Shown: piece by piece, positions 3,433 through 8,491 of the stretch
Layout of the letters: the number at the start of each line of letters is the position of its first letter
Numbering within the stretch: the first letter of the stretch is position 1
Origin: a virus
DNA length: 20,336 nucleotides
Virus record (IMG/VR): IMGVR_UViG_3300037246_000100
Coordinates: 1 to 20,336 of that record
Strand: one strand, 5' to 3'
The notes under the pieces: generated by a model
Seen by the model: the letters and a program-made list of their open reading frames with translations, nothing else
Databases searched by the model: none
What the model was told of the DNA's origin: nothing
Position numbers and translations under genes: made by a program

Positions 3433-3933
3433 ATGACTAAAGTGAAAGAGAAAACCAAAGTAAAGGCCAAAGTAAAAAAGAAAATAGGAAGACCTACCGA
3501 TTATACGCCAGAGTTAGCAGATAATATTTGCTCACAACTCGCTGATGGCTTATCTATGCGAACAGTATGCAAACCAAAGGCTATGCCTAACAAGGCTACG
3601 GTCTTTAAATGGTTAAGAACTAACGAAGAGTTTAACGACCAATACGTAAAGGCTAAGGAAGAATCAGCCGACGCTTTAACCGATGAAATCCTTGATATTG
3701 CTGATAATTGTAATAATGATTGGATGGAAAACGAGGGCGATAGCACGGGATACAAGATCAACGGTGAGGCTGTTCAGCGCTCACGACTAAGAATAGACTC
3801 GCGCAAATGGCTAGCATCAAAACTAAAACCTAAAAAATACGGCGACAAGATTCAGCAAGAGATTACTGCACCCGAAGGAGTCACGTTTAATATGGACTTT
3901 GGCGTAAAAAAAGACTCTAGCAATATCAGTTAG
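3433..3933 (+). CDS. terS: Terminase small subunit (Sf6 gp1-like)
   Basis: This 166-residue DNA-recognition subunit of the packaging motor binds phage DNA at the pac site and hands it to the large subunit. After a lysine-rich tail (residues 1-17), residues 18-70 hold the helix-turn-helix region with G-R-P-T-D-Y, L-A-D-x-I-C, MPNKATVFKWL and a D-x-Y-V-K-A helix. A central oligomerisation segment (TDEILDIADN) and a C-terminal RSRLRIDSRKWLASKLKPKKYGDK follow. This order and many residues match Shigella phage Sf6 gp1, so the assignment is strong. The gene starts at ATG 3433 and ends with TAG at 3931-3933. The large subunit follows in the same reading frame, and the gene is bracketed by an imperfect inverted repeat. 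Confidence 0.9.
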   Translation: MTKVKEKTKVKAKVKKKIGRPTDYTPELADNICSQLADGLSMRTVCKPKAMPNKATVFKWLRTNEEFNDQYVKAKEESADALTDEILDIADNCNNDWMENEGDSTGYKINGEAVQRSRLRIDSRKWLASKLKPKKYGDKIQQEITAPEGVTFNMDFGVKKDSSNIS

Positions 3934-3934
3934 T

Positions 3935-3952
3935 TAGTTAACTTCTCTCAGT
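3935..3952 (+). repeat. Downstream arm of the inverted repeat bracketing the small terminase gene
   Basis: TTAACTTCTCTCAGT (3938-3952), together with 3935-3937, is the near reverse complement of 3415-3431, the ribosome-binding region of the small terminase gene. Pairs 3415-3423 with 3944-3952 and 3424-3428 with 3938-3942 form around one bulged base (3943), with weaker pairs beyond. It lies between the small-terminase stop and the large-terminase coding sequence. Confidence 0.5.
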
Positions 3953-3969
3953 ACAGATATAAGGCGCTA

Positions 3970-5601
3970 ATTATCACAACAATTAATTACATAGCATCAC
4001 CAACCGGTGCAAAGTTTCACGCCTCTAATAAAATAGTTAGAGGCTTTCTTGGTCCTGTTGGTAACGGTAAGTCAGTAACTTGCATCAACGAAATGCATAG
4101 GATGGCAGTAACTCAAGAGCCAAATTGTGACGGTGTACGTAAAACCAAGTTTGCAATAGTTCGTAACACTTACGACATGCTAGAAACTACAACCCTTCAA
4201 ACATTTATTCAATGGATACCTCACGAAATATGCGGTATCACCTTAAAGCCTATGCGCGGCAATATGACTTATCCTTTACAGGATGGGACAAAGGTAGAGG
4301 CTAAGTTTATATTTCTGGCACTAGATAGGCCTGATGATGTTAAAAAACTATTGTCGTTAGAGGTTACTTGCGTGTTTATGAATGAAAGCCGTGAATTACC
4401 CTATGCAGTTGTTAAAGGTGCGCGTGAACGTATTGGGCGTTATCCTTCACAAATTGACGGATACACTGATGTTTACAAAGAGGGCCAGCTAGTTTATTCG
4501 GCACCAAAAGAATTAGACGAAGACGGTAACGAGTTGTTTAATGATGACGGGACGCCACAATACAAGCCATGTACTCGCAAAGGCTTGTTAATGGACACTA
4601 ACCCGCCAGAGGATGACCATTGGTGGTATCAGCTCGCAGAAGATGGGCATTTAAGAACAAACGATTCATTAGAGGCTAAAAAGGCAGTTGCTGAGATATT
4701 TGATTTCTTTCGTGGCCCCGCTCCATTTACAAGAAGTGGCGAGGAATACATTGACAACCCACTCGCGGAAAACGTTAGGTTTTTACCTGGTGGATTCAAA
4801 TACTATCGAGATATGTTAGCCGGTAACACTGAAGACCATATCAACGTGATGGTGATGGGCAACTACGGCACGATTAAAGATGGAAAGCCTGTTTACCCTC
4901 AATACAATGACAGGATTCATTGCCCTGAAAAGCCTATAGGAATCATTGAAGACTTGCCGATCGGACTTGGTTGGGATGGTGGGTTAACTCCTTCATGTAT
5001 TATCGGTCAGCAAACTAAGCGCGGCCAATTAAGAGTTATTGCTGAATTGGTCAGTGAAGATATGGGTGTTAGGCAGTTTGCAAGAGATATTGTTAAGCCA
5101 TTTTTGCAGCGTAATTTCTACGGTATAAAGGTTGCGTTCAGTTATATTGATCCCGCTGGTCGTGGTCGCGGTGAAGCAGAAGCTAAAAGCGCTATGGGCA
5201 TACTTAACGATGATTACATTGAAGACAATGCTGATGGTGATATCATTCAGCCATTGAGCTTAGGCTTTGAGACTGAACCAGCACCAACGAATGACCCCAC
5301 AAAACGAATAGATGCGGTTAACTCTTACATAATTAAACTAGTAGACGGTGAGCCTGGTTATTTAGTGAGCCGTAAATGCCCTATGATTAGAAAGGGTAAG
5401 ATTGGCGGATATCAATACAAGCGTATGCAGGTTTCAGGTGAAGATAAATTTAAAGATAAGCCTGATAAGAATAAATACTCTCATCCTGCTGATGCTGAGC
5501 AATACATGGCTTTAGGTTTTGCTGGTGGTTATGTGGTAGAATCTCAGGATGACTATGATGAATATGATGACTTTAAAGAAGTCGGTGTAATGGGATATTA
5601 A
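3970..5601 (+). CDS. terL: Terminase large subunit, start codon non-canonical or uncertain
   Basis: This is the ATPase/nuclease motor that cuts concatemeric DNA and pumps it through the portal. Numbered from ATT 3970 (543 residues), Walker A GPVGNGKS is at 28-35. A Walker B-like VTCVFMNESRE lies near 132-142, and the coupling motif MDTNPP near 208-213. RNase H-type nuclease acidic residues are near D336 (GLGWDGGL), D394 (YIDPAGRG) and D508 (SHPADAEQY). The first ATG in frame is 4093, inside and beyond the Walker A region, so that start would delete the ATP site. The frame is open back to the small-terminase TAG with no ATG, GTG or TTG. I chose ATT 3970 because TAAGG lies just upstream (3960-3964) and the protein then begins about 27 residues before Walker A, a length I recall as usual for relatives. 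ATC 3973, ATT 3982 or stop read-through are alternatives. Confidence 0.85.
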   Translation: MITTINYIASPTGAKFHASNKIVRGFLGPVGNGKSVTCINEMHRMAVTQEPNCDGVRKTKFAIVRNTYDMLETTTLQTFIQWIPHEICGITLKPMRGNMTYPLQDGTKVEAKFIFLALDRPDDVKKLLSLEVTCVFMNESRELPYAVVKGARERIGRYPSQIDGYTDVYKEGQLVYSAPKELDEDGNELFNDDGTPQYKPCTRKGLLMDTNPPEDDHWWYQLAEDGHLRTNDSLEAKKAVAEIFDFFRGPAPFTRSGEEYIDNPLAENVRFLPGGFKYYRDMLAGNTEDHINVMVMGNYGTIKDGKPVYPQYNDRIHCPEKPIGIIEDLPIGLGWDGGLTPSCIIGQQTKRGQLRVIAELVSEDMGVRQFARDIVKPFLQRNFYGIKVAFSYIDPAGRGRGEAEAKSAMGILNDDYIEDNADGDIIQPLSLGFETEPAPTNDPTKRIDAVNSYIIKLVDGEPGYLVSRKCPMIRKGKIGGYQYKRMQVSGEDKFKDKPDKNKYSHPADAEQYMALGFAGGYVVESQDDYDEYDDFKEVGVMGY

Positions 5602-7786: not shown

Positions 7787-7970
7787 TCACCCGGTAACAA
7801 AAGTTATATTTGCTCAAGTAAAAGATCAGTTGAATGAATTACGCGCAGAGTCGACATTAAGATCGACAGTTGATGAAACTGCAATGGCTACAGCTAAAAA
7901 CGAAGGTATAGCCGAAGGTGCTTTATCTTTATTTGATGCTTATGAGTTGCAAGCGGAGAATGCCGAATGA
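7749..7970 (+). CDS. Small acidic protein between portal and co-chaperonin
   Basis: The 73-residue product starts at ATG 7749, inside the portal gene in another frame, with CAGGG at 7736-7740 (8-base spacing). It is helical and acidic; residues 1-30 (TKQELQEWNSHPVTKVIFAQ) and a later helix (AMATAKNEGIAEGALSLFDA) suggest a coiled-coil-like bundle. Similar small helical proteins commonly follow portal genes and may assist assembly, but the role is unproved. It ends in ATGA overlap with the GroES-like gene. Confidence 0.65.
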   Translation: MVITKQELQEWNSHPVTKVIFAQVKDQLNELRAESTLRSTVDETAMATAKNEGIAEGALSLFDAYELQAENAE

Positions 7971-8491
7971 ATAGGCTAGCAATTAAAGATAATCCGCTGG
8001 GTTTTGATCATAACAAACTATCCACTGCTCTTAGTGATCCTTATAGCGAGATGGAATGTAAGTCTAATCCGTTAGTAAAACCAGAGGATGCTATTAATTT
8101 ATTGGTGGCGGATGTACCCGATTTAATCCCAGTAAGACCATTGGGTCATCACGTATTGGTAGAAGTCGTCCCAGTTAGCTTTAAATCTACAGGCGGCATT
8201 ATACTGCAAACCGAAACCGAAAACGAACGTGAACGTAAGGGCCGTGATTTAGCGAAAATTATCGCGTTTGGCCCCACTGCTTACAAAGGTTTTTCAGGTT
8301 GCGAGTCTCCGAAGGATTGGGGCGTTGAAGTCGGTGATACTGTAGAGTTAACCGGCCGTTATGATGGCAAATTCAGTTCAGTACATGAGTTTGACAAGAA
8401 GTATAAAAGCCTGCGCTACGTGTCAGACAGTGACATTATTGGTGTTCTTAACAAAGAAATAGTTAAACAACTTATTAACGAGGATAAGTAA
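7967..8491 (+). CDS. GroES-like co-chaperonin
   Basis: GroES-type rings cap the GroEL folding chamber; phage versions such as T4 gp31 let host GroEL fold the coat protein. The Cpn10 fold is visible from residue 53: IPVRPLGHHVLVEV (first strand), a mobile loop with the GroEL-contacting GGIIL at 76-80, charged loop residues to about 93, AKIIAFGPTAY, GVEVGDTVEL at 119-128, and the C-terminal YVSDSDIIGVL. At 174 residues it is longer than bacterial GroES (about 97), owing to a 50-residue N-terminal extension and a longer loop with G-C-E-S-P-K-D-W. It lies between portal and scaffold genes and overlaps its neighbour by ATGA, so it is made with the procapsid proteins. Confidence 0.85.
   Translation: MNRLAIKDNPLGFDHNKLSTALSDPYSEMECKSNPLVKPEDAINLLVADVPDLIPVRPLGHHVLVEVVPVSFKSTGGIILQTETENERERKGRDLAKIIAFGPTAYKGFSGCESPKDWGVEVGDTVELTGRYDGKFSSVHEFDKKYKSLRYVSDSDIIGVLNKEIVKQLINEDK

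Follow-up and report, generated by a model that had tools for sequence, protein, structure and literature searches.

How is a phage large terminase subunit translated if its reading frame offers no ATG, GTG or TTG codon ahead of the ATP site? The question is raised by terL, the gene of the large subunit of terminase, a usual phage marker gene, in a virus record that is 20,336 bases long, was analysed over its whole length and is designated the window in the following. We describe the locus, compare it with related terminase genes and present a proposal for its start codon.

The terminase genes of the window

The small terminase subunit is encoded by terS (3433..3933, plus strand, as are terL and its features described below), which ends in TAG and was assigned by Pfam (PF20901, Sf6_terminase, E 2.4e-43) and PHROG (1482, terminase small subunit, E 2e-49). 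It is followed by terL, which, counted from an ATC codon proposed here as its start, covers 3973..5601 and comprises 542 codons and a TAA stop. The deduced TerL gave no match to Pfam, PHROG or NCBIfam models at the thresholds used; it was identified as a phage large terminase by its Walker A ATPase motif, by its relatives in IMG/VR, by its homology to annotated terminases, and by the location of its gene, which adjoins terS on one side and the portal gene on the other. Matches to terminases of isolate phages show 22-40% identity, those with an annotation extending over at least 90% of the length with up to 39% identity. Elsewhere in the window, a gene for a GroES-like co-chaperonin (7967-8491; PHROG 3188, E 8e-10) is located between the portal and capsid genes, and the stretch 2299-2806 contains the overlapping frames 2299-2499 and 2435-2806, which have no relatives in the fetched loci and could represent either two small genes or one frameshifted gene.

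A reading frame without a canonical start codon

As stated in the original prediction, the frame behind the terS stop codon TAG (3931-3933) is open, it encodes the Walker A motif GPVGNGKS at 4051-4074, and its first ATG (4093..4095) follows downstream of this motif; the frame extends to a TAA at 5599-5601. A codon-by-codon scan of positions 3934-4092 in the terL frame detected no ATG, GTG or TTG, which confirms that canonical starts are missing ahead of ATG 4093. The further statement that such codons are absent from every frame between 3931 and about 4045 turned out to be wrong: GTG 4007, outside the terL frame, is the sole canonical codon in this stretch. A start concealed in another frame was rejected, since use of this GTG would require a frameshift. 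A run of 53 codons without a start has a probability of about 0.07 at 42% GC and is not unusual per se; what is unusual is that a conserved gene has this run ahead of its essential motif. Among 174 TerL-like frames collected, a canonical start upstream of Walker A is missing only in the window and in one relative, L019, and a third frame flagged for a missing start (L231) has an ATG farther upstream. Gene callers limited to ATG, GTG and TTG would begin the window TerL past the ATP site, as had been anticipated for a gene call at 4093, and the same would happen to the TerL of L019.

The homologous start position in relatives

A first scan of IMG/VR yielded 48 relatives, the best of which is 87% identical to the window TerL; with later scans, the comparison set, the window counted, grew to 61 distinct TerLs that contain GPVGNGK and have a sufficient length of upstream sequence. 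GPVGNGK is invariant in the alignment of relatives, and in most of them the tblastn match starts at the 13th or 14th residue encoded by the open frame, which corresponds to codon 3970 or 3973. Codon 3973, located 26 codons before Walker A, is ATG in most relatives, GTG in L020, L030, L032 and L037, and TTG in L025, and a few relatives start one or two codons off this position. The annotated isolate phages Ss1, Rollin and Pmp11 likewise have an ATG start at or beside it. In the window, the homologous start position is thus occupied by a near-cognate codon, ATC (3973..3975), behind the Shine-Dalgarno-like sequence TAAGG (3960..3964). The earlier conclusion that terL requires a rare start, with this ATC as one candidate, is supported.

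Where TerS was traced in relatives, the interval that separates terS from terL varies widely in length and content, and homology therefore stops at the start codon. Alignment with the relatives, suggested as a check of the original prediction, shows homology from codon 3973 onward, no homologue of the residues encoded ahead of it after the TAG, and a missing canonical start in one relative only, L019. In close relatives, the terS-terL junction carries differing short open reading frames or spacers of 39 to about 640 nt (L019, 2865-3000; L002, L004 and L007, upstream of terL), as if it were a hot spot of insertion or recombination.

Codon constraint ahead of ATG 4093 was determined by comparison of the window with 19 relatives. 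For the 39 codons before this ATG, pN was 0.092 and pS 0.658, a ratio of 0.14 obtained by a test that is blind to a very recent loss; for the 48 codons after it, the ratio was 0.24. Coding constraint thus starts upstream of the first canonical codon, and because purifying selection acts on these 39 codons, they appear to be translated. A start at 4093 is therefore disfavoured, as a gene beginning there would not show such constraint.

Relatives with isoleucine codons at the start position

The window apart, L019 is the only one of the 61 TerLs without a canonical start. Its codon matching 3973 is ATT, AGGAGG is located 8 nt upstream of the ATT, and the frame contains no canonical codon from its preceding stop up to Walker A; the first one is a GTG located after the beginning of this motif. 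The pairing of this AGGAGG with the anti-Shine-Dalgarno sequence (-10.9 kcal/mol) is the strongest of the 61 and is equalled at 0.6% of the positions in its own locus. ATT is also present at the matching codon of L028, the sister of L019 in the tree with a support of 88/89, which is below the usual threshold. The start of L028 is ambiguous because GTG and TTG codons, with little Shine-Dalgarno sequence of their own, are located 3-4 codons upstream. As judged from the sequences, the ATC of the window and the ATT of L019 and L028, which belong to different clades, look like separate changes.

In L014 and L164 (from a Colwellia MAG), ATA is found at the matching codon and ATG two codons earlier. 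The arrangement is ATG ATT ATA in both (L014, 1094-1102; L164, 1995-2003), and since the ATG directly follows AAAGGTGA, so that the Shine-Dalgarno sequence is unusually close, the true terL start may likewise be the ATT or the ATA. A degenerate scan for isoleucine-codon starts returned L014, L019 and L028 again, together with four distant TerLs that each have an ATG nearby, and scans with L019 and L028 yielded no new members with ATT.

Strength of initiation in the family

The predicted pairing of the window TAAGG with the anti-Shine-Dalgarno sequence is moderate (-4.0 kcal/mol), 19.5% of random positions doing as well, and the distance from its AGG to ATC 3973 is 8 nt, the spacing found in L019. 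The portal genes served as control. A canonical start is fully missing in 2 of 61 TerL frames and in none of 66 portal frames, a difference too small for significance alone. With the longest-frame rule and the same contigs, non-ATG starts were counted in 20 of 52 TerLs versus 6 of 52 portal genes (p 0.003), and Shine-Dalgarno pairing was weaker in TerL (median -3.0 versus -4.0 for portal, p 0.007); a second rule for start choice gave the same direction (15/52 versus 4/52 non-ATG starts, p 0.01), all these p values being optimistic, as the sequences are related. The TerL starts of the family are weaker than those of portal, which fits weak TerL initiation throughout the family as far as sequence comparison can tell. 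For the suggestion that TerL is kept scarce relative to the small subunit, this offers indirect support only.

A hairpin of 9 bp (4021..4044; arms GCCTCTAAT and GTTAGAGGC) is located in the 5' coding sequence of terL. About half of the window's clade (for example L002, L005, L007, L008, L011 and L029) keeps all of its base pairs, whereas it is absent elsewhere, and codon conservation is high in its carriers. A role as initiation element was rejected, as the hairpin starts 48 nt downstream of the ATC, does not form in L019 or L028, and exhibits weak covariation.

Proposed initiation at ATC 3973 and alternatives

The homologous position of the ATC, the absence of a canonical alternative, the constraint upstream of 4093 and the ATT at the matching codon of two sister relatives are established. 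Initiation at the ATC, its coupling to terS, a low yield and any benefit are what we infer from them. We consider it likely that terL is translated from ATC 3973 as a genuine near-cognate start. The initiator fMet-tRNA would read the ATC as a near-cognate codon, the TAAGG 8 nt upstream would position the ribosome on it, and ribosomes terminating at the terS TAG, 39 nt upstream, would probably assist initiation. The predicted product is a terminase of 542 residues with an intact Walker A motif and the N-terminus fMet-TTINYIASPTGAK, beginning where the TerLs of relatives begin. Because a near-cognate start initiates poorly, initiation would be low and TerL would probably be made in small amounts. 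Against this proposal stand the moderate Shine-Dalgarno sequence of the window, the great rarity of switches from AUG to AUU in bacteria and the fact that the ATC is private to the window contig, its nearest relatives having ATG at 3973; an exact 30-base search of IMG/VR, a collection that may omit records very near the window, found no second contig with this region.

Another explanation is a consensus error in a metagenome contig whose true codon at 3973 is ATG, terL then being ordinary: ATC is one base away from the ATG that all the closest relatives have at this codon, and the Shine-Dalgarno sequence of the window is only moderate. However, the main reading frames of the window otherwise show no defect and have ATG or GTG as start codons, and ATT occupies the matching codon in L019 and L028, which come from other samples, with an exceptional Shine-Dalgarno sequence in L019. 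Three separate errors at one codon would be required, as against none in 66 portal frames. A sequencing error, named from the outset as the alternative, may on this comparison be regarded as less probable than for an isolated case, and we consider it possible but unlikely. A real mutation that is damaging, with terL decaying or yielding only a truncated product from 4093, would account for the missing canonical start and for a 4093 product without Walker A, but the whole terL frame is open and constrained, including its N-terminal part (only a very recent lesion would escape the test), and the neighbouring genes appear intact, which leaves this explanation very improbable.

The rare start might also be real and located at another near-cognate codon. 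ATT 3970, originally proposed beside ATC 3973, and ATT 3982 are both in the terL frame, and L014 and L164 share ATT and then ATA at the matching two codons, after their ATG; yet the conserved position is 3973, and ATT 3970, one codon upstream of it, is only 5 nt from TAAGG, whereas ATC 3973 has the 8 nt of L019. ATT 3970 is thus less likely than ATC 3973, and a start at any such neighbouring codon is improbable. Read-through or recoding of TAG 3931 to give a TerS-TerL fusion, also put forward originally, is hardly credible. Both genes are in one frame, which remains open for 555 codons past the TAG, but in relatives the two subunits frequently do not share a frame, as in L007, where a TerS of about 90% identity ends in TAA, and the 13 codons between the TAG and 3973 are without homologue. 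Recoding was rejected, as TAG is an ordinary stop within the window, where it ends other genes as well (7784, 9737 and 17243).

Beyond initiation at ATC 3973, it is conceivable, though rather doubtful, that the family keeps TerL scarce by selected weak initiation, with non-ATG starts and weak Shine-Dalgarno sequences and, as the extreme, a sole AUU or AUC start that has arisen at least twice. If TerL were selected in this manner, its output would be sensitive to the IF3 level and the growth state of the host. If the start is real, a phage structural operon here uses a near-cognate codon, which is a rare case, and does so in a family whose terminase starts are generally weak; the question of how phages set the ratio of small to large terminase would thereby become testable. 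These results are of use mainly in urging care in gene calling and in offering a testable lead on the terminase subunit ratio.

Comparison with known near-cognate starts

Rare AUU, AUC and AUA starts are known in bacteria, as had been noted originally for AUU. The infC gene of E. coli and others, encoding IF3, resembles terL in that an essential gene starts solely at a near-cognate codon of the isoleucine family; the infC start serves IF3 feedback, whereas TerL has no known link to IF3 or, to our knowledge, to translation initiation in general. In Listeria, the ATT start of infC and the ATC start of rnhC were confirmed experimentally, and rare or flexible starts were found in less than 0.3% of the core genes (PMC13068326). 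The rnhC start is the same codon as in the window terL and is fixed across that one species (PMC13068326), whereas the ATC of the window occurs in one contig whose relatives have ATG or ATT. In S. aureus, AUU and AUA starts reach about 10% of AUG and all possess extended Shine-Dalgarno sequences, cvfC1 (AUU) and ccpN (AUA) being examples of such low-yield starts (PMC13009471). L019 likewise pairs a weak codon with a very strong Shine-Dalgarno sequence, whereas that of the window is only moderate. Excess IF3 inhibits initiation at non-canonical starts (PMC2268962). A switch from AUG to AUU was reported for 1 of 61,358 ancestral AUG starts of bacteria, a rate derived from annotated genomes, in which annotation disfavours such starts (PMC5622118).

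Among phages, the TerLs of Cronobacter phage vB_CsaP_Ss1, Pasteurella phage Pmp11 and Burkholderia phage BcepC6B are homologous to that of the window (34-39% identity) and, unlike it, start with ATG. A search of the open literature returned no phage terminase reported to start at a near-cognate codon. The terL gene of the window probably has a near-cognate start of the kind known in bacteria, and as such would be a new case in a phage gene.
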